NCBI GenBank assembly: GCA_025061835.1 | Contig: JANXAC010000004.1 | Span: 1-64,000 of the forward strand | Origin: Spirochaetota bacterium | GTDB taxonomy: Bacteria > Spirochaetota > Brevinematia > DTOW01 | Length of the DNA stretch: 64,000 nucleotides | Direction of reading: 5' to 3' | Shown here: one piece after another, positions 148 to 20,645 of the stretch | Numbering within the stretch: the first letter of the stretch is position 1 | Layout: each line of letters opens with the position of its first letter | Position numbers and translations under genes: made by a program | The notes under the pieces: generated by a model | The model's database searches: none | Seen by the model: the letters and a program-made list of their open reading frames with translations, nothing else | Told to the model about the DNA's origin: nothing

Positions 148-894
148 ATGATAAGAATATTCTTTGTATGGTTTTTAGTTTTTGATTTGTTATTGTTATG
201 GGTTAATGCTTATTCTCAAACTGTTGTATACTACGACCCTGATGGTAATTTGAGAAGGATAGTTGACATAAATTCTGAAGGTAGTAAGTTATTCTCAAAG
301 GTTGGTTTGAAATTTGTGGTCACAGCAGACGAAAACTCCTTTAATAATGCAGTTAAACAATACTCTCCTGAGTATTTTATTCTAAACTCCATCATATACC
401 AAACGAAGAAGAAGAGTTTGGATGTTGATGCTTCTTTTGTTTTTGAGAGGAATAAGAAGGTAACATATACCAAAAGAGTAGTGACTTTTCAAGAGGGGAT
501 AGGTATCAAAGATCTTGGCAATAGTGTTTTAGCATCTTCTTTCAGAGACATATCAGATATAGTTCCTATTGAGACAAGGGTTCTGAAGGTTCCTAAGGAT
601 CTTGATGCACTTCTGGCAATGAAGTTCAAGCAAGCGGATTTTGCACTGGTGTCTGAGAGTAGTATTGATGTTTTTAAATCCATAAGTCCTGTGGACTTTG
701 GTTTATTGAAGGTTGTATATACCAGTAGAGAGATATATAATCCTGTCTTCTGTTATGTTCTGGGAAAGGGAAGTCTCTCCAAAGTTAGGGAAGTTGAGAG
801 GTTGTTACTAACGCCAGAGGCAAAGCAATTTCTAAGTCTAATGCTCTTTGACTCAATAAATAATGACCCTAAAATAATATCTAAAGTTAAGTAG
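148..894 (+). CDS. PhnD-like periplasmic substrate-binding protein
   Basis: Secreted protein of about 248 aa. From the ATG at 148 the first 22 residues form a good signal peptide (MIRIFFVWFL then a hydrophobic core, cleavage near AYS-Q). A TTG 45 bases upstream keeps the frame open but would put extra residues before the signal; neither start has a clear Shine-Dalgarno sequence. The body resembles the phosphate/phosphonate PhnD type binding fold: a segment FALVSESSID followed by a block on 'ready to use' residues and a C-terminal helix VREVERLLLTPEAKQFL, as in PhnD C-termini. The ligand cannot be read. It is the first gene of a four-gene + operon (10 bases to the next start). No ABC permease or ATPase accompanies it, so it may serve sensing rather than import. 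Family assignment is by pattern recognition, moderately sure. Confidence 0.65.
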   Translation: MIRIFFVWFLVFDLLLLWVNAYSQTVVYYDPDGNLRRIVDINSEGSKLFSKVGLKFVVTADENSFNNAVKQYSPEYFILNSIIYQTKKKSLDVDASFVFERNKKVTYTKRVVTFQEGIGIKDLGNSVLASSFRDISDIVPIETRVLKVPKDLDALLAMKFKQADFALVSESSIDVFKSISPVDFGLLKVVYTSREIYNPVFCYVLGKGSLSKVREVERLLLTPEAKQFLSLMLFDSINNDPKIISKVK

Positions 895-904
895 GAGGTT
901 GTTT

Positions 905-1867
905 ATGGGAATCTTTGAGAGGATAATTGTTTTAATATCTTTGTTATTCGTATTTTCATACTCTTCCCTTTCGGAGGTTATAAGAGATATAAAGACTTTC
1001 TCATTTCCTAAAAGGACTGGTAAAGAGGTTTTAGTGTTGGTTTCGGATAAAATTTCAACTTTTGAAGAGGTTGATAACGGTATAGCGGAGTCACTCAAGG
1101 GTTATAATGTTTATTCGTATAACTTTCAAGGTGATACTAACTCAATGGATGATGTGCCAGAAATAGTTTCCAGGCTAAAACCAAATGTTGTGGTAGTTCT
1201 AGGTGCTAGTATTTTTGAAAAGATTGTTGGGAAAACAGATATACCGATAGTTTTCTCCATGGTCATAAACTATAAGAAGTTTGACATTGAAAAATATAAA
1301 AATATTGCTGGTGTTTCATTACAAATTCCGCCTGAATCTGTCTTCTTTAATCTTAAGACAATCTATCCTAACTTCAGGAAGGTTGGGGTTATATGTAGTA
1401 AAGACTACTTTGATTCTTATATAAAGCCTTCTGTTGATAGCTTGAAGATCAGCCTAGATGTTGAGGTTATTTCAAGTATCATTCAATCATCTAAAGACTT
1501 TGTTTCAGCATATAATAACATATCAAAGAACGCTGATGTTATGTGGATGGTTCCTGACACTGCTGTTCTAGATAAGAACTCAATAATATTTTTCATAACT
1601 GAAAGCTTCAAGAGGCAGAAACCTTCGGTTGTTTATTCAGAACCATTCGTCAAAGCAGGTGGATTTTTCAGTGTGTCTCCAGACTATAATAGTATTGGTT
1701 CCCAGATAGCACTCATAGTGAGGAGAATAGTTGAGGACAAAAGCACTCCTAATAAGATAGGTATAGTTCCAGTTGTAGGAACATTTGTAACCGTGAATAG
1801 AGAGATTTCTAAGAAGTTAGGTATAAGTGAGGATATTTTGAGTTTGGTTGATAAGGTTATTGAGTAG
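905..1867 (+). CDS. ABC-type substrate-binding protein, PF04392/TrpX-like family
   Basis: Periplasmic protein of about 320 aa. The start is the ATG at 905, placed by the sequence taggagg eight bases before it; an in-frame TTG six bases upstream is less likely. An N-terminal hydrophobic signal (ERIIVLISLLFVFSYSS) is followed by the two-lobe fold of the PF04392 binding-protein family: VLVLVSDKISTFEEV, the repeat strand PNVVVVLGASIFEKIVG, IPIVFSMV, then KVGVICSKDYFDSY for the second lobe and a late GFFSVSPDYNSIGSQIALIVRRI segment typical of the family. Ligands in this family are often aromatic amino acids or unknown compounds. It sits between another binding protein and a sensor phosphatase, which suggests it reports ligand occupancy to that phosphatase; that is inference. 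Confidence 0.75.
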   Translation: MGIFERIIVLISLLFVFSYSSLSEVIRDIKTFSFPKRTGKEVLVLVSDKISTFEEVDNGIAESLKGYNVYSYNFQGDTNSMDDVPEIVSRLKPNVVVVLGASIFEKIVGKTDIPIVFSMVINYKKFDIEKYKNIAGVSLQIPPESVFFNLKTIYPNFRKVGVICSKDYFDSYIKPSVDSLKISLDVEVISSIIQSSKDFVSAYNNISKNADVMWMVPDTAVLDKNSIIFFITESFKRQKPSVVYSEPFVKAGGFFSVSPDYNSIGSQIALIVRRIVEDKSTPNKIGIVPVVGTFVTVNREISKKLGISEDILSLVDKVIE

Positions 1868-1876
1868 GGGGTTATT

Positions 1877-3493
1877 ATGTTGTCTTTTTCAAACCTCAAC
1901 ATTAGAGCTAAACTTTCAATAGTTATATCAATAATAGTTGTTTCTATGTCTCTTGTGATGAGTATAATATTTATACTCAAATCTAACAATGAAATGATGT
2001 CTTCAATAGTTGTCAGGTCTGGTATGCTTGCTAGAAGCATGGCTGTCTTATCCGCTAATTACATAGCAGGGTTTCAGTATCTTGATGTTCAAAAAGCCAT
2101 AGAGGATGTTGTAGACAAAGACAAGGAGATTGTTTATGGTTACCTAGAAGATGTTAATGGAGATGTTATTTCTCCTGTATTTAGAGATGAATTGATAAAG
2201 GATCAGAGCAAGATATTATCTGATTACAAGAACTTCACAAAAATTTTAGGTAAGCTTGATCCATATGGTTATGGTTTTACAGCAGATGTTAGATTGAATA
2301 TAGTTGTTCATGGTAATGAAAGGTGTGTTGATGTTAGAGTTCCGGTTGTAATAGGAGAATCGGTGTCTTCATACATAAGATTTGGGACAACTCTTAGATA
2401 CCTAGATCAGCAGCTCTTGATGAATATAATTATATCAGTGCTTATAGTGACCTTCTTGATAGGTATAGGTATCGTATTTAGTTGGAGTTTTGCAAGAAGT
2501 TTCTCAACACCTATTCTTAAACTCAAAGATGCTGCTATACAGTTTGGTAACAAAAACTTTGATTATAGCGTTGAGATCGTTACGAACGATGAGATTGGTG
2601 TTCTTGCAAAAACATTTGATGAGATGCGAAAAAACATAAAACAATATAGTGAGCACTTGGAGGAACTAGTTGCTCAAAGGACAAAAGAATTACAAGAAGC
2701 GTATCAAAAACTCAAAGAGAAAGATGACATAATACAGATGGAATTAGACTTTGCAAGTAAGATACAAAAGGGTATAATGCCTAATGGAGGATACAAGTGG
2801 CACGACTTTGTTGTTTTTGGATACTCTCAACCTATGGAGAAGATAGGGGGAGACTTCTTTGATATATTTCCAATTCCGGGTGGAAAACTTTTGTTCTACG
2901 TTGCGGATGTTTCAGGACATGGTATTCCTGCTGCGCTAGTTACTACTATGTTAAAAATATCACTTATAAATATAAGTTTTGAAACGAGTAATCCGTCAGA
3001 GATAATTGAAAGACTCAACGAGAGGATAAGAATAATAAACAGTGATGCTAGTCAAGTTATGGCGAATTACTTAACAATATTTACTTCAATTGTTGACAGA
3101 GAAGGTAATATGGTTTATTCATCGGGAGGGCATCACAAGCCTATTTTGTATAACTCCAAAACTAGAACTTTTGAAGAACTTCCAGAGGCTCAAGGAGCGA
3201 TTGTAGGTATAATCCAGCCAGAACTTTATAGTTGCACTTCTTCAAATTTCGTTCTTAAAGATGGAGATAAGATGATACTATACACCGATGGTGTAACAGA
3301 GAGAAGGAACCTCTCGAATAAAGAACTTGAACTTGAAGGGCTGAAAAAGATAGTTGCCGAATGTGTTGATAGGAATCTATCTGGTAAAAAACTGCTAGCA
3401 CAGATCCTAAGTGAGATTGATAGATTTGCTGAAGGAGTTCCACCAAGAGATGATTTTACCATTTTATTAGTTGAGAAAATAAAGTCTTCTTAA
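1877..3493 (+). CDS. Membrane sensor PP2C-type serine phosphatase (RsbU/SpoIIE-like) with HAMP
   Basis: Inner-membrane sensor of 538 aa that should dephosphorylate a serine/threonine-phosphorylated partner, typically an anti-sigma-factor antagonist. Order of parts: TM1 about residues 14-34, periplasmic sensor about 35-180, TM2 about 183-205, HAMP about 206-260 (ending NDEIGVLAKTFDEMRKNI), a coiled-coil linker about 262-290, then the PP2C domain to the end. Catalytic motifs are intact: GGDFFDIFPI, YVADVSGHGIPAALV, the SSGGHHKPIL strand and ILYTDGVTE, with a final RDDFTILLVE. Start ATG is preceded by tagggggtt. It lies 9 bases after the second binding protein and 18 before the TonB receptor, so these four genes are probably cotranscribed. 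No partner STAS or anti-sigma gene is in the window. Confidence 0.93.
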   Translation: MLSFSNLNIRAKLSIVISIIVVSMSLVMSIIFILKSNNEMMSSIVVRSGMLARSMAVLSANYIAGFQYLDVQKAIEDVVDKDKEIVYGYLEDVNGDVISPVFRDELIKDQSKILSDYKNFTKILGKLDPYGYGFTADVRLNIVVHGNERCVDVRVPVVIGESVSSYIRFGTTLRYLDQQLLMNIIISVLIVTFLIGIGIVFSWSFARSFSTPILKLKDAAIQFGNKNFDYSVEIVTNDEIGVLAKTFDEMRKNIKQYSEHLEELVAQRTKELQEAYQKLKEKDDIIQMELDFASKIQKGIMPNGGYKWHDFVVFGYSQPMEKIGGDFFDIFPIPGGKLLFYVADVSGHGIPAALVTTMLKISLINISFETSNPSEIIERLNERIRIINSDASQVMANYLTIFTSIVDREGNMVYSSGGHHKPILYNSKTRTFEELPEAQGAIVGIIQPELYSCTSSNFVLKDGDKMILYTDGVTERRNLSNKELELEGLKKIVAECVDRNLSGKKLLAQILSEIDRFAEGVPPRDDFTILLVEKIKSS

Positions 3494-3511
3494 ATTTTTA
3501 AGGAGGGTTTT

Positions 3512-5710
3512 ATGAAGCACATGCTGAACATAATTATTATGCTGTTTATATTTCTTCTTCAGTTTGGGGGTTATGCTCAGATAACTGAAGAAGATTTTTT
3601 CAAGATTGAGGAGAGCATAGTTGTAGCAGCTACGAAGCAGAAGCAAACAGTTTCTGAAGCACCAGCAACTGTTTATGTTATTGACCAAAAGACTTTAAGG
3701 GTACTGAGTTTCTCTGAACTAAATCAAGTGTTGAGGTTTGTTCCTGGCGTTGATGTCTATGATCCTGACTTCTTCCTTTTCGGCGGACAAAGGGGGTTTG
3801 TAGGTGCTTTTGACACTACCTTGGTTCTTCTTGATGGAGTTGAGATGAATAATAATATTGCAAGTGAATCGTTCATAAGTCACAACTATCCTCTATTCCA
3901 TGTGAAAAGGATTGAGGTGATACAAGGTCCTGCATCATCACTCTATGGTGCTAATGCAGTGGGTGGTATAATAAACCTTGTCACATACGATGAGGAAGAA
4001 ATCAATGGTATAAGGGCAAGTGTTAAGTTTGGTTCATACAATACTCTATCTCCTTCCGCATTACTTGGTGGTAAAATAGGAGAGTTTAGATACAAAGTTT
4101 TTGGTAGGGTTTATCTTACCGATGGACCAAACTATTACGATAAGGTTACGAAGTATTACATTTACGCTCCTCAAACACCTAATATAAACAGAAGACCTAA
4201 TTACTCACTTTGGGACTATAGTGATACAGGTTATAATAGATATCTGTATGCTAAGCTAAGTTATGGACCTTTCTATCTAGGTGGTGTCTATAATTACCAG
4301 ATTGATGGAAGAGGAGTTCAAGATATTCAATGGGTTTATTACTTTGACGAGGACGGTAGAGATCAGAGAGTACTCTTCGGTGGTTTTGAACAATTTCTAA
4401 TTCCTGATTTCTTGAAACTTAAGATTGAACAGAGAGTATGGCAAGATTATCTGTGGGGTAATCATACACAAGTTAGCGATATTTTGGATGTTTCACCAAG
4501 TGGCTATCCAATAACAAACTCACAAGATACAAACATCACAAGAGGTGATATTGAAGCATGGAGAGGGTTCTACTCAAATCTAAAGTCTCCAGGGAGCTTA
4601 AGGTTCCAAACGGAATTACAAGCTGCTCTATATTTTGCGGAAAAACACAGACTTACAGTTGGTGCGGTTCTTGATATTTTAAGAGGTTTAGGTGCTTCTT
4701 GGAATAGGCTTGATTACTCAACTCTTGTAGAAGGTCCAACTAATGTTATAGATGTTCATCCTTATGTTGATGTTGATAAGCAACTCGCATCTTGGATAAA
4801 AGCAAGTCTCTACGCTCAATGGGAAGTTCCTGTTATAAGTGAAGTGCTATTTGTTACGCTAGGTGGTAGAGGAGATGCTTACATAGTTAGTAATCAAACG
4901 AGGTTTGAGATAAACCCGAGGAGTGGTATAGTTTTAAAACCGTTTGAGGGAGCTGCTTTTAAACTACTTGTTGGTAAAGCGTTTAGGGAGCCTACAGTGT
5001 TTGAACTATGGGGTGCTGCTAACAAGCAAGGTGGTATCCAGAAGCTCAAGTCAGCGTCAACTTGGACCTTTGAGTTAAGTTGGTTCCAGATCATTTCTGA
5101 TTGGTTACAGAACTCACTTGCAGGATTTTATAATTATGGAGAGAACTTTAAAGTTACGATACCAGAGCAAGGTTCTGGTGTAACTGAAGTCCCGATTGTA
5201 AGGATATGGGGTGCTGAAGAGTATCTAAAGATTACTCTACCATTCTTCCCAAGCATCCAGATAACGCTAGGTTATACCTACCAAACAGGAGTTCAGTCAT
5301 ACTGGAAAGTAACCGTTCAAGGAACTACAACAAACTCAAACTGGGTTGACGGAAGCATACCGACAATCCCTCAACATAAAGGTAGTGTAATCGTATCTTA
5401 CAAAGTTCTAGAAAATGCTTATCTATCCATACTTAATTATATCGTTGGTGATATTGACCCAGGGCTAGGAAACTCATTATCAACAACATTAGGAAGACTT
5501 CCAGCGTATTGGATAGTTGATGCATCATTATTGGTCAATGATATATTCACTTTTGCTAATACTTCCTATGATCTTAATATAGCAGTTAGAAACCTTCTCA
5601 ACCAAGAGTGGTGGAACCTCAACCCAAGAAACGGTGGTGCAGGACTTTCACCAGCGGCATTTCCACAGAAAGGTATCAACTTTGAAGTATCTCTAACGGG
5701 TAGGCTATAA
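3512..5710 (+). CDS. TonB-dependent outer-membrane receptor
   Basis: Outer-membrane gated barrel of 732 aa for import of a scarce ligand (iron complex, cobalamin or similar). Signal peptide about residues 1-22 (cleavage near GYAQ). A TonB-box-like stretch ESIVVAATK follows at about 31-39, then the plug domain with SEAPATVYVIDQKTL, LNQVLRFVPGVDVYD, TTLVLLDGVEMNN, and the classic VKRIEVIQGPASSLYGANAVGGIINLVT. The rest is a beta-barrel with alternating aromatic strands. The last strand ends FEVSLTGRL, so the usual terminal Phe is replaced by Leu. Start follows aaggagg. It is last in the operon and is followed by an intrinsic terminator. The ligand cannot be inferred; siderophore and B12 receptors look alike at this level. 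Confidence 0.95.
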   Translation: MKHMLNIIIMLFIFLLQFGGYAQITEEDFFKIEESIVVAATKQKQTVSEAPATVYVIDQKTLRVLSFSELNQVLRFVPGVDVYDPDFFLFGGQRGFVGAFDTTLVLLDGVEMNNNIASESFISHNYPLFHVKRIEVIQGPASSLYGANAVGGIINLVTYDEEEINGIRASVKFGSYNTLSPSALLGGKIGEFRYKVFGRVYLTDGPNYYDKVTKYYIYAPQTPNINRRPNYSLWDYSDTGYNRYLYAKLSYGPFYLGGVYNYQIDGRGVQDIQWVYYFDEDGRDQRVLFGGFEQFLIPDFLKLKIEQRVWQDYLWGNHTQVSDILDVSPSGYPITNSQDTNITRGDIEAWRGFYSNLKSPGSLRFQTELQAALYFAEKHRLTVGAVLDILRGLGASWNRLDYSTLVEGPTNVIDVHPYVDVDKQLASWIKASLYAQWEVPVISEVLFVTLGGRGDAYIVSNQTRFEINPRSGIVLKPFEGAAFKLLVGKAFREPTVFELWGAANKQGGIQKLKSASTWTFELSWFQIISDWLQNSLAGFYNYGENFKVTIPEQGSGVTEVPIVRIWGAEEYLKITLPFFPSIQITLGYTYQTGVQSYWKVTVQGTTTNSNWVDGSIPTIPQHKGSVIVSYKVLENAYLSILNYIVGDIDPGLGNSLSTTLGRLPAYWIVDASLLVNDIFTFANTSYDLNIAVRNLLNQEWWNLNPRNGGAGLSPAAFPQKGINFEVSLTGRL

Positions 5711-5727
5711 GATATTTTTGGATTTAT

Positions 5728-5750
5728 AGGGGGATAATTCCCCCTTGTTT
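5728..5750 (+). terminator. Intrinsic terminator after the TonB receptor operon
   Basis: A stem A+GGGGG / CCCCC+T (5728-5733 with 5740-5745) closes a six-base loop ATAATT and is followed by TTGTTT. It starts 18 bases after the receptor stop. It also lies just beyond the end of the convergent gene on the other strand, though the U-tract favours + strand termination. Confidence 0.8.
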
Positions 5751-6870: not shown

Positions 6871-8019
6871 CTAGAACTTGTATCTTAGAAATACAGATTC
6901 GGAAATAGAAGCACTATAAACGAAAACTATATTGCTACCATCTAATAAATAGCCAGTGGTTCCTAAAGACAATGTCAATGCTTTTATTTGGAAACCCAAA
7001 GAGATGTTATCAATGAAAGATGTTTCAAAGGAAATCATTATCCCTAAAAACCTGACATTCCCCGGTTCCGCTGCACTACTATCAATCACTACATTCTCTC
7101 CTCCTACATTCCCTGACAGAACTAAAAGTGGAATAAAGGATAAAGCTTCATTCTTACTGAACTTTAACTTCACAACGGGGAATAGGTAGAGGTTATCAAA
7201 ACTTATTCTTTCCAAATCTGATTGAAGATTAAGTGTTTCGTTATTGTGTTTTGTAAATCCTCTGATTTCAAACACTGAATGTTCATACAACATTCCAAGT
7301 CCTATCATCATAAAACCTTTGAAAAACCAGAAACCACTAGATAAGTCAATACAAAAATTGGGGCTCGGTTTGGGTTCAATAGATAATCCTAAAGAAAGCG
7401 AGAAATATCTAGTATCTAAACCATAACTTAAGCCAATCATATATCTAATGCTATATTCAGGTTTTTGTTCAAAGTCTTCGGTAATTGGGAAAATGTTCGT
7501 TTGTCCCATATTAATGTTAGTTCCCAATGATTCTTTTTCAAGACGTATTATTGGTTGAGTGGGATTGATATGTACTGCAATGCTATGCTTTGTTCTTGTT
7601 TCTTCAAGAGGGCTTACATAGTCAATTTCTACTATCTCCTTGAGTATCTTTTCTGGTTCCTTTGGAGGAAATATTTCTAGAATGTTTGAAACTATTGCTT
7701 CAACCTTATCATCACTCAAGGAGATATTCGTTAGCAACCCTTTGGTTGTAAATATTCTTAATGTCTTGTTGCTTATTGCTAGAAGACCAGACAGTTTGTT
7801 ATCAGACATAAACTTCATCTTTTCGTTATCATCACCTATCTTACCAATGTGGTAATATATATTTAATTTACCGGAGTTTGCGAGTTTTGTCTCCATAAGC
7901 ATAGCCATAAATCTACTATCACTATCTTCCGGAATTACCGATATAGTTTGATTTTGAATACCTGATGTGTATGTGCTAAATACAACACATATTAATGATA
8001 CAAAAAATGACTTTTTCAT
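6871..8019 (-). CDS. Secreted two-part protein with C-terminal barrel-like domain
   Basis: Protein of about 382 aa from the ATG at 8019 (MKKSFFVSLICVVFSTYTSG signal peptide); an upstream in-frame TTG would add only seven hydrophobic residues. The N-terminal half (about 20-165) is a small alpha/beta domain with LSGLLAISNKTLRIFTTKGL and a Pro/Glu-rich linker (FPPKEPEKILKEIVEIDYV). The C-terminal half consists of amphipathic strands such as YSIRYMIGLSYGLDTRYFSL and ends SESVFLRYKF, an aromatic terminus expected of outer-membrane barrels. No known family was recognised. It is first of a two-gene - operon and is divergent from purL, sharing a 171-base intergenic region with a palindrome at 8100-8114. 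Confidence 0.7.
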   Translation of the reverse strand: MKKSFFVSLICVVFSTYTSGIQNQTISVIPEDSDSRFMAMLMETKLANSGKLNIYYHIGKIGDDNEKMKFMSDNKLSGLLAISNKTLRIFTTKGLLTNISLSDDKVEAIVSNILEIFPPKEPEKILKEIVEIDYVSPLEETRTKHSIAVHINPTQPIIRLEKESLGTNINMGQTNIFPITEDFEQKPEYSIRYMIGLSYGLDTRYFSLSLGLSIEPKPSPNFCIDLSSGFWFFKGFMMIGLGMLYEHSVFEIRGFTKHNNETLNLQSDLERISFDNLYLFPVVKLKFSKNEALSFIPLLVLSGNVGGENVVIDSSAAEPGNVRFLGIMISFETSFIDNISLGFQIKALTLSLGTTGYLLDGSNIVFVYSASISESVFLRYKF

Positions 8020-8099
8020 AATTAATATTATGATAATCAAATTAAGGGTTTAGTGTAAATTTTTAGATATTAAATACCATTAGTATGATTTTTAGCATC

Positions 8100-8137
8100 T
8101 ACTCAAGTTGAGTAAGAGAGTGAAGATTTGTTAAAAT
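8100..8137 (+). promoter_or_regulatory. Candidate purL promoter overlapped by a palindromic operator
   Basis: A 15-bp palindrome TACTCAA-G-TTGAGTA occupies 8100-8114. Its right half supplies a possible -35 TTGAGT (8108-8113), followed after 18 bases by TAAAAT (8132-8137) as a -10. Transcription would start near 8144, leaving a leader of about 47 bases before the purL ATG. The overlap of palindrome and -35 suggests repressor control; no regulator is identified. Confidence 0.4.
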
Positions 8138-8159
8138 ATTGCAAACATTTTAATAATGT

Positions 8160-8190
8160 TTTTTGGAGAGAGAGATTTTTGGAGAGAGAG
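8160..8190 (+). promoter_or_regulatory. Tandemly duplicated Shine-Dalgarno region of purL
   Basis: The motif TTTTTGGAGAGAGAGA occurs twice in succession directly before the ATG at 8191. Both copies contain GGAGAG, giving two potential ribosome-binding sites about 16 bases apart; only the second is at working distance from the purL start. This decides the start in favour of 8191 over the in-frame TTG at 8128. Confidence 0.6.
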
Positions 8191-10416
8191 ATGTCAGCCG
8201 AACTAAAGGAAGATATTAACGAAAGAACTAAGGAACATTTGAACATTTTGAAACTTTCAGAGGACGAGTATAGACTTATAGTTGAGTACTTAGGTAGGAA
8301 ACCGAATGAAATTGAACTTGGGATGTTTGGAGCATTGTGGAGCGAACATTGTGGATACAAGCATACGAGAAAACTACTGAAAGAACTGCCTACAGAAGGT
8401 AAATACATCTATGTTGGACCTGGTGAGAATGCTGGTGTCATAAGAGTAGATGATTTAGCAATAGTCTTCAAGATAGAGAGCCATAACCATCCTAGTGCCG
8501 TGGAACCCTATCAAGGTGCTGCAACTGGAGTTGGTGGAATCGTTAGAGACATTCTCTCAATGGGAGCAAGACCTGTAGCACTTCTTGACTCCTTAAGATT
8601 TGGAGATCCGTCGAAACCTAAGGTTAAACATCTCCTTACAGGTGTCGTTAGAGGTATATCTGATTACGGAAACTGTATTGGAGTTCCTACGGTTGCAGGA
8701 GAAGTGTATTTTGAAGATGCTTACGAAAATAATCCTCTCGTCAATGTAATGTGTGTAGGTATAACAAAAGTGGACAAACTTGTAAAATCTGTTGCTAAAG
8801 GTGTTGGAAACTTGGTTGTTTATTACGGTGCTAAAACTGGTAGGGATGGTGTTCATGGTGCTACCTTTGCATCTGCTGAACTTAACACTTCGTCAAATGA
8901 GGATAGGTCAAGCATCCAGATAGCTGACCCTTTCGTTGAAAAGAAACTCATAGAGGCAACACTAGAACTTGCTGAAAATAACTTAGTTGTATCTATACAA
9001 GATATGGGTGCTGCTGGACTTACAAGCTCATCCTGTGAGATGGCGTCAAAGGGAGGTGTTGGAATTGAACTTGAAATTGATAAAGTTCCTGTTAGGGTAA
9101 GTGACATTACACCTTATGAGATTATGCTATCAGAGTCGCAGGAAAGAATGCTAGCAATCGTTGAACCATCTAAACTTGATAAGGTTAAAGAAGTTCTTGA
9201 GAGATGGGAGTTAGATTGGGCTGTGATAGGAAAGATAACTAATACAAAACGATGTGTTGTGAAGTATAATAATGAAAAAATTGTAGATTTGCCGCTAAAA
9301 TATCTGGTTGATGAGGTTCCATTCTACCAAAAACCATCCAAAGAGGATACCGAAGTAAGGAAAATAAGAGATATAAAGCCAACTGTCTTCATAGAAGATC
9401 TGAAATCATCTATTCTCAAGCTCTTGTCCTCTCCAAATATATCTTCCAAGAGGTGGATATACGAGCAATACGATTGGTCTGTCCAAACGAATACGGTCAT
9501 ACCACCTGGTAAAGCGGGTGCTACTGTTATAAGGATTAAGGATACCAACAAAGGATTAGCGCTTAAGGTTGATGGAAATGGAAGGTATATGTATTCCTAT
9601 CCTTATATTGGTGCCACAGTTGCAGTAGCAGAGGCTTGTAGGAATGTTTCATTTGTAGGTGCTGAACCCGCTGGTATAACAAATTGTTTAAACTTTGGAT
9701 CTCCTGACAATGAGAATGTTTCATACCAGATACAACAAGGTATAAAGGGAATGGCTAGGGCTTGTAAGGAACTAAATGTTCCAGTAACTGGTGGTAATGC
9801 ATCTCTTTATAACGAGTATAATGGAACTCAAGTTTATCCAACCATAACTGTAGGATGTGTAGGTATAATAGATGATATAACAAAGGTAGTTGATGCTCAA
9901 TTCAAGAAAGAGGGAGATTTGATAGCACTCATCGGTAACGAAACAAAAGAAGATTTTGGAATGGCCGAAATTCTTAAAGCACTGGACAAAGATGTATGTG
10001 GAAAACCACCTATAATTGAATTTGAGGTTGAGAGAAAATTACAGGAATTCGCAAGGTTTGTAATAAAGCATGGTCTTGTCTCGTCTGCTAACGATGTATC
10101 TGATGGTGGTATGATTGTTTCAGTCGTTGAAAGTATGATAGATACAGATTTTGGAGTAATGCTTGACCTTTCATCATTGCCCGTCTATCCAGCAATAGCA
10201 CTATTCTCCGAAACTCAAAGTAGAGGTATATTCTCTTTTGATAAGGAATTCCTTGATACTATAAAAACTATATCTCAACATTATGGATTAAAGTTTAGAT
10301 TGATCGGTGAAGTGATTAAAGACCACAAACTCATAATTAAGGGTGTCAAACAATCTGATGATTTGGTTATCACTAAAGAAGAATTAAAACATGCGTTTTA
10401 TTCTAATTCTTTCTAA
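8191..10416 (+). CDS. purL: Phosphoribosylformylglycinamidine synthase, large subunit (small-form PurL)
   Basis: Cytoplasmic enzyme of de novo purine synthesis: converts FGAR, ATP and ammonia to FGAM. At 741 aa it matches the small PurL form that works with separate PurQ and PurS, neither of which is in this window. Visible motifs: SEHCGYKHTR (51-60), ESHNHP at 96-101, YQGAATGVGGIVRDI, the central ATP-site loops VSIQDMGAAGLTSSS and SQERM, and in the second half TGGNASLYNE and SANDVSDGGM. Start at 8191 has GGAGAG immediately upstream. The next gene starts 26 bases before the purL stop, so it may be translationally coupled. Confidence 0.97.
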   Translation: MSAELKEDINERTKEHLNILKLSEDEYRLIVEYLGRKPNEIELGMFGALWSEHCGYKHTRKLLKELPTEGKYIYVGPGENAGVIRVDDLAIVFKIESHNHPSAVEPYQGAATGVGGIVRDILSMGARPVALLDSLRFGDPSKPKVKHLLTGVVRGISDYGNCIGVPTVAGEVYFEDAYENNPLVNVMCVGITKVDKLVKSVAKGVGNLVVYYGAKTGRDGVHGATFASAELNTSSNEDRSSIQIADPFVEKKLIEATLELAENNLVVSIQDMGAAGLTSSSCEMASKGGVGIELEIDKVPVRVSDITPYEIMLSESQERMLAIVEPSKLDKVKEVLERWELDWAVIGKITNTKRCVVKYNNEKIVDLPLKYLVDEVPFYQKPSKEDTEVRKIRDIKPTVFIEDLKSSILKLLSSPNISSKRWIYEQYDWSVQTNTVIPPGKAGATVIRIKDTNKGLALKVDGNGRYMYSYPYIGATVAVAEACRNVSFVGAEPAGITNCLNFGSPDNENVSYQIQQGIKGMARACKELNVPVTGGNASLYNEYNGTQVYPTITVGCVGIIDDITKVVDAQFKKEGDLIALIGNETKEDFGMAEILKALDKDVCGKPPIIEFEVERKLQEFARFVIKHGLVSSANDVSDGGMIVSVVESMIDTDFGVMLDLSSLPVYPAIALFSETQSRGIFSFDKEFLDTIKTISQHYGLKFRLIGEVIKDHKLIIKGVKQSDDLVITKEELKHAFYSNSF

Positions 10417-19383: not shown

Positions 19384-19613
19384 AACATAATTATAAAATA
19401 TTTGGAAGAAGTTTGTTCAATTTTTAGTTTCTATGTTTGGAATTGCAGGGATTTAAGAAATTCACACTTAATGATTGTATATAAGTTAAGTCAGTTTATT
19501 GATTTTGCCGGAGTTCGGGATAGTATCGGAGTTTGGTTCGTTGGATAAACACATCTTATTAGGTATTGGTAAATCCTTGGAAGGAATGTTTATACTATAA
19601 TATCGTATCTGTT

Positions 19614-20645
19614 ATGAATGGAATAAGGCTGATTATATATATCTTGATAGGGATAGCGTTTATTCTTCCTGTTATACACTATATAGTGATAGGGGGGACC
19701 TCGTCCTACTACTTGGATGTTGCGATAAGGGTTGGTGTTTATTTACTTTTGGCTTTGGGGCTAAACCTTGTTATCGGATACACTGGGCTTCTTGACCTTG
19801 GTTTCATAGGGGTTTTCGGAGTTGCTTGCTATACTACTGCTATCTTAAACACTAGTGGTATTCCATTTGTTTTTTCTGCCTTGGGTGCTGTAATTTCTGT
19901 AATGTTATTTAGGCTAATTATTGGATTACCGCTTATAAGACTCAGGGGGGACTATCTAGCGATAGCGACACTCGGGTTTGGTGAGATAGTCAGAATAGTA
20001 GCAAATAATTTTGATGCTCTCACAAACGGTCCAAGAGGATTACCTAGAGTAGGTCAAACGATTGAGAATATTAACTTTGGATTTTATCAACTGTCTTCAA
20101 GCCTTGAAGTGTATATCTTCACAGTGGTTATGATAATACTCGGCATTCTAGCATCGTATAGGATAGAGAATTCTAGAATTGGTAGGGCACTCGTTGCTAT
20201 AAGAGAGGATGAGATAGCATCTTCTCTTATGGGTATAAATGTTTCAAAACTTAAGTTATTCATTTTTGTAATAAGTGGTATATTTGGTGGAGTTGCTGGA
20301 GTGATATACACTCACAAGGTTGGTTATATTACTCCGAACTTGATACAGTTTTGGGATTCTATACTTCTGGTAGCAATAGTTGTGATAGGTGGTATAGGTA
20401 GCATACCTGGTGTTGTTATTGGTGCGATAGTATTTTACGGAATACCTGAATTGTTGAGAGATGTTCTAGGCTCTCAACTTACTGAGTTTAGGATGCTTGT
20501 TTTCGGTATAATAATGCTTCTTATGATCATCTTTAGACCTCAAGGACTTATACCTTCCGAAAGGAGGAAGGTAGAACTCAAACCAGAGACTTCAAAGATC
20601 CGTGAGGAGGAGGACCAATCTCTGTTTGACCTAGAAAAGAGATAG
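19614..20645 (+). CDS. livM: Branched-chain amino acid type ABC transporter permease (LivM family)
   Basis: Inner-membrane permease of about 343 aa from the ATG at 19614; an upstream in-frame GTG-like start at 19566 would add 16 residues not seen in relatives. Signatures of LivM: YLLLALGLNLVIGYTGLLDLG, LPLIRLRGDYLAIATLGFGE, FDALTNGPRGLPRVG, the EAA-like loop SRIGRALVAIREDEIASSLMGIN, then LKLFIFVISGIFGGVAGVIY and GGIGSIPGVVIGAIVFY. About nine membrane helices. LivH, LivG, LivF and LivK are not adjacent: the next gene is a tiny membrane protein and upstream is an opposite-strand gene. The rest of the transporter must be elsewhere or absent. Confidence 0.92.
   Translation: MNGIRLIIYILIGIAFILPVIHYIVIGGTSSYYLDVAIRVGVYLLLALGLNLVIGYTGLLDLGFIGVFGVACYTTAILNTSGIPFVFSALGAVISVMLFRLIIGLPLIRLRGDYLAIATLGFGEIVRIVANNFDALTNGPRGLPRVGQTIENINFGFYQLSSSLEVYIFTVVMIILGILASYRIENSRIGRALVAIREDEIASSLMGINVSKLKLFIFVISGIFGGVAGVIYTHKVGYITPNLIQFWDSILLVAIVVIGGIGSIPGVVIGAIVFYGIPELLRDVLGSQLTEFRMLVFGIIMLLMIIFRPQGLIPSERRKVELKPETSKIREEEDQSLFDLEKR

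Follow-up and report, generated by a model that had tools for sequence, protein, structure and literature searches.

Why would a bacterium encode an outer-membrane receptor and two periplasmic binding proteins together with a membrane phosphatase, and no transporter to carry a ligand across the inner membrane? The question is raised by a four-gene operon at positions 148 to 5,710 of a 64,000-nucleotide stretch of Spirochaetota bacterium DNA (GCA_025061835.1, contig JANXAC010000004.1; the whole stretch is called the window), which makes up the opening 64 kb of a 113 kb contig in a 1.8 Mb genome of 55 contigs. We think it rather likely that the operon is a ligand-sensing relay, running from a TonB-dependent receptor (TBDT) through the substrate-binding proteins (SBPs) and a periplasmic sensor to a PP2C phosphatase, and not an import system. 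The features concerned, with the evidence for each, are the following.

148..894, + strand: BP1, PhnD-fold (PF12974-type) periplasmic binding protein, 248 amino acids (aa), N-terminal signal sequence (orthologues pass Pfam; AlphaFold2 (AF2)/Foldseek)
905..1867, + strand: BP2, periplasmic binding protein of PF04392 (ABC_sub_bind, TrpX-like), 320 aa (Pfam E 6.9e-18; 3lkv, 3lft)
1877..3493, + strand: membrane phosphatase, 538 aa, first transmembrane helix (TM1) - periplasmic sensor - second transmembrane helix (TM2) - HAMP - coiled coil - SpoIIE/PP2C (HAMP 1.2e-11, SpoIIE 1.8e-37)
1979..2431, + strand: periplasmic sensor region of the phosphatase (about residues 35-185), Cache-like topology (AF2 topology; homologous sensors of SBP-adjacent PP2Cs and kinases)
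2876..3475, + strand: SpoIIE/PP2C catalytic domain with the metal-binding motifs GGDF, ADVSGHG, TDGVTE and RDDF (Pfam, motifs)
3512..5710, + strand: TBDT, TonB-dependent outer-membrane receptor, 732 aa, Plug only (Plug 1.2e-17)
5728..5745, + strand: terminator-like hairpin 3' of the TBDT gene, 7 pairs, 5 GC, short T tail

The gene order is kept outside this genome, as the original prediction, made from the letters of this DNA, implied that it should be: in full in the window's family, as BP1-BP2-PP2C in other spirochaete families and as BP1-BP2-histidine kinase in Gemmatimonadota and Desulfobulbaceae. Within the window's family, all four genes stand in the same order in two genomes (G003, G004), a third (G002) has BP1-BP2 at one contig end and PP2C-TBDT on another contig, and a fourth (G001) has PP2C-TBDT at a contig end; identities to the window proteins across the family are 41-69% for BP1, 46-68% for BP2, 58-77% for the phosphatase and 67-85% for the TBDT. 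At one of these loci (L070, G002:C55, 1155-4670) the phosphatase and the TBDT occupy one 1171-aa frame in which the stop of the former and the start of the latter are gone, which is probably a small deletion or a misassembly in a fragmented bin. When 393 genomes of the phylum were searched with a BP1 profile, 10 matched well, all of them with BP1 adjoining BP2, and 1 matched weakly outside this context; BP1-BP2-HAMP-PP2C was present in three further families: f20 (L102, L191), f9 (L192, L193, L195, all with divergent orientation of PP2C and BP1) and f23 (L194). BP1 of L195 (G104, 7469-8247) lies in two overlapping frames, through a frameshift or a sequencing error. BP1 directly adjoins BP2 in 15/15 loci, and the TBDT adjoins the unit in 7 of the 9 complete spirochaete BP1 loci. 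Proximity by accident of a compact genome would explain such a cluster where SpoIIE-type proteins abound, as they do in spirochaetes (12 such domains in this genome). By chance, ~4% of genes here would have a SpoIIE gene no more than three genes away, yet a HAMP-PP2C gene lies beside BP1-BP2 in 9/9 spirochaete loci with intact flanks (the window, G003, G004, f20, f9 and f23), in four families, and HAMP kinases substitute for the PP2C in other phyla, so that we regard accident as very improbable.

A BP1-less triad of TBDT, PF04392 protein and HAMP-PP2C with a divergent catalytic domain was found in another five spirochaete genomes, some of which have it at two places, and in one triad (L097) a class III cyclase replaces the phosphatase. 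Kinases were considered as the output of the Leptospirae-type triads and ruled out, since the 600-860 aa proteins concerned have a divergent SpoIIE-type domain. The SBPs of these Leptospirae-type triads (L084, L085, L086, L087, L101, L127; 445-530 aa) carry a C-terminal tail resembling tetratricopeptide repeats, as do most of the phosphatases of the same triads.

Contigs of named genomes beyond the phylum were scanned by using BP2 motifs only, so the neighbours recovered are unbiased, and this gave 40 non-duplicate loci from many phyla; a contig scan with the phosphatase alone gave no matches. A HAMP or kinase transducer lies within three genes in 31/40 loci and a TBDT in 24/40, usually in the order TBDT - SBP - HAMP kinase. 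BP1 adjoins BP2 in five of the 40 (L138, L139, L141, L142, L173), and a kinase adjoins the pair in Gemmatimonadota (L139, with TBDTs) and in Desulfobulbaceae (L142). No ATP-binding cassette (ABC) permease or ATPase was found within three genes at any of the 40 loci, nor at the spirochaete loci, while the same detectors found permease and ATPase in 8/19 short canonical PF04392 loci; the lack of import genes held across relatives as the original prediction expected. The adjacent permease and ATPase by which a PF04392 ABC importer is recognised are thus seen neither in the operon nor in its relatives; what is seen, and conserved from genome to genome, is the arrangement that marks SBP-dependent signalling: the SBP is encoded beside a transducer that has an extracytoplasmic domain. 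In the BP2 tree, the ABC-linked PF04392 proteins form a separate clade (100/100), and within the BP1-linked clade (100/97) proteins with PP2C and with kinase outputs are interspersed, which forces at least 4 PP2C changes.

These counts bear on whether the operon serves ordinary nutrient uptake, in which the TBDT and SBPs would feed an ABC permease whose genes lie elsewhere (LivHM or a PF00528 pair) and the PP2C would be a local regulator of another signal. Orphan SBPs are encoded by some organisms, and candidate partners exist: a LivM-type permease (PF02653) of another transporter class lies in the window at 19566-20645, 14 kb off, contig C23 carries another PF02653 permease, which is LivH-like, and the genome has 8 PF00528 permeases. 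The claim that nothing in the window supplies inner-membrane import is therefore right for the operon but, taken literally, not for the window. Against uptake stand the lack of any adjacent permease or ATPase (0/40 loci), the absence of PF02653 from G021, G044, G061 and G079, all of which have the TBDT-SBP-PP2C triad, and a sensor region that tracks the SBP; we consider uptake unlikely.

The sensor was followed with a profile built from TM1, the periplasmic region and TM2 of the phosphatase, the HAMP domain being left out. It matched 20 HAMP proteins, all 20 of them members of the module (3/20 first scored as non-adjacent only through contig ends or a split BP1), and 0/25 other HAMP proteins; against 32 other PP2C proteins its best score was 12.8 bits. 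The matches include histidine kinases (L139, L142, L143, L149 and others). The reverse case is a second phosphatase in the window's own genome (L074, G000:C20, 2-1507), whose catalytic domain is 64% identical and whose sensor is unrelated and HAMP-less. Because one sensor profile is shared across outputs and this second phosphatase has the output with another sensor, sensor and output form distinct modules, of which the sensor goes with the binding proteins; at the level of sequence, this is one sensor with exchangeable outputs. The original prediction had the ligand-loaded binding protein acting on the periplasmic domain of the phosphatase, and that link is backed since the sensor region is common only to transducers encoded beside the same SBP family; ligand binding, the identity of the ligand and the contact between SBP and sensor are what we infer.

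The gene identities originally proposed (PhnD-like, PF04392, HAMP-PP2C, TonB receptor) were upheld by profile and structure matches. BP1 alone scores E 0.16 against PF12974 in Pfam, and its orthologues lie above the Pfam cut-off (42.6 and 40.7 bits vs 27). The AF2 model of BP1 has a predicted local distance difference test score (pLDDT) of 89.6, and Foldseek matched it to the bacterial sterol-binding protein 7t1m (TM-score 0.76), PtxB, ArrX, AioX and PhnD (E about 1e-12 to 1e-13 against AioX and ArrX); BP1 is a PhnD-fold, PF12974-type protein. BP2 belongs to PF04392 and has the PDB relatives 3lkv and 3lft. The SpoIIE domain of the phosphatase is full length (Pfam positions 1-190/192) with intact metal-binding motifs, and its best NCBIfam match is SiaA (8e-36), below the SiaA cut-off. 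AF2 places a helix-strands arrangement between two long transmembrane helices in the sensor, at moderate confidence (pLDDT about 70 for the sensor region), in a phosphatase model too poor for structure search. For the TBDT, the nearest solved chains are Cir and BtuB, over the plug region, a BtuB/Cir-like plug gives no ligand identity, and Pfam returned Plug only, with no STN signalling domain. Searches of solved structures indicated no ligand beyond the family level.

The open reading frames, their strand and the gaps of 10, 9 and 18 bases were all reproduced. Shine-Dalgarno-like AGGAGG sequences stand 5' of BP2 (894-899) and of the TBDT gene (3501-3506), and a G-run lies upstream of the PP2C gene (1867-1871). 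A terminator had been proposed for the operon end, and a hairpin with a T tail is found there, with a convergent gene beyond it; the hairpin alone is not strong statistics, because 5 terminator-like sites were found vs 2.8 +/- 1.7 in shuffles. No riboswitch or other known RNA scored over the gathering score near the unit in the window or in four related loci. Because the window starts at contig base 1, with 147 bases before BP1, the upstream context cannot be judged from the window itself; in G003 and G004 a gap of ~480-500 bp and then divergent genes lie upstream of BP1, which makes BP1 the first gene of the unit, with no permease cut off.

In the relay that we favour, the TBDT, powered by ExbB/TonB, would carry an extracellular ligand into the periplasm, where BP2, with BP1 as a second binding protein or co-receptor, would offer the captured ligand to the Cache-like sensor domain. 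TM2 and HAMP would transmit the signal and so alter the activity of the cytoplasmic PP2C, which would most likely act on a STAS-type antagonist and so free a regulator or sigma factor. A histidine kinase takes the place of the phosphatase behind this front end of SBPs and sensor in relatives. Both ends of this chain have candidates, since the genome encodes ExbB and, on another contig, a STAS/HATPase_c_2 gene pair. This pair is a candidate for the anti-sigma antagonist that the original prediction proposed to look for elsewhere in the genome; with 12 SpoIIE-type domains in the genome, it is not assignable to this phosphatase.

The SBPs might instead act in the opposite sense, with apo or loaded SBP keeping the PP2C off in a LuxPQ-like manner and feedback control of the TBDT operon as the main job. 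LuxPQ is a precedent for SBP-dependent switching, and co-transcription, together with the divergent PP2C/BP1 promoters of L192, L193 and L195, suggests autoregulation; the sign of the effect is not derivable from sequence, and we consider this version improbable.

Several observations weigh against a relay in which the binding proteins drive the phosphatase. The whole phosphatase model has a pLDDT of 47, and distant matches of the sensor region are weak (14-44 bits). No TBDT lies near the unit in 2/9 complete spirochaete BP1 loci (L192, L193). BP1 of the window's family is without an inter-lobe loop that distant orthologues have, and may therefore bind a different ligand or none. The SBPs could also serve a distant permease.

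SBPs are known to drive chemoreceptors, sensor kinases, cyclic di-GMP (c-di-GMP) enzymes and Ser/Thr kinases, a list on which phosphatases do not appear (PMC9602780). AioX, a PhnD-fold SBP, is thought to act on the kinase AioS (PMC5908839), and NspS-MbaA is an SBP-dependent signalling system with a c-di-GMP enzyme as output (PMC8967002). AioX-AioS and ArrX-ArrS share with the operon the BP1 fold, an SBP gene beside a transmembrane transducer and the lack of a permease; their output is a kinase, whereas the operon has a PP2C, and also a TBDT and one further SBP from a different family. AioX uses Cys106 (pocket Ser161/Ser163/His192), whereas the alignment of BP1 orthologues has no invariant Cys; in the window's family it also shows the inter-lobe loop deleted. 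LuxP-LuxQ, TorT-TorS and NspS-MbaA likewise have a dedicated periplasmic binding protein that regulates a membrane receptor independently of import, but with other SBP families, histidine kinase or c-di-GMP enzyme outputs and no TBDT. FecA-FecR-FecI ties a TBDT to a signalling system; the operon differs in having no STN, FecR or extracytoplasmic function (ECF) sigma factor, and its signal would go via captured ligand and SBP. Leptospiral TBDTs are reported to be without FecA-type extensions (PMC8638967), which is consistent with signalling by another route. SiaA/RsbU/RsbP-type phosphatases share the HAMP-SpoIIE architecture, but in the operon the sensor goes together with SBPs and a TBDT. TrpXYZ-type PF04392 ABC importers share the family and fold of BP2 (3lft, 3lkv) and differ in having the permease and ATPase that the operon lacks and SBPs of the separate ABC-linked clade.

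The suggestion that the unit may be undescribed stands in part. The open-licence literature yielded no TBDT-SBP-sensor gene set, no account of an SBP controlling a PP2C and none of a TBDT belonging to such a unit, which is weak evidence of absence, and SBP-driven kinases and cyclases are already known; judged from sequence, what looks new is an SBP-driven PP2C with a dedicated TBDT.

Two further arrangements of PF04392-type proteins were observed. A recurrent spirochaete cluster (L077, L088, L099, L105, L110) combines a PF04392-type protein with an 800-aa protein, in which a Cache-like membrane sensor precedes an apparent MFS (major facilitator superfamily) transporter, and with an adenylate-cyclase/GGDEF-like protein; some of these loci also have an alanine-racemase-like protein. 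The cluster is possibly another SBP-linked sensing system. Proteins of ~1000 aa in L112, L115, L119, L124, L125, L132 and L133 fuse a PF04392-like region to a histidine kinase and a receiver, a predicted union of SBP and sensor in one chain.

More tentatively, the operon may belong to a widespread and undescribed class of receptors with three to four components. The TBDT would take up a scarce ligand for signalling only, PF04392 and PhnD-fold SBPs would present it to a conserved Cache-like sensor whose output is swapped among kinase, cyclase and PP2C, and the spirochaete form would be the first SBP-controlled phosphatase. If so, some TBDTs would exist to load a sensor and not to feed the cell, and orphan SBPs and many unannotated TBDTs in uncultured phyla would gain a testable role. 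The output swap behind one sensor offers a natural experiment in receptor modularity, and the unit looks like a little-known way to sense a captured molecule rather than eat it.

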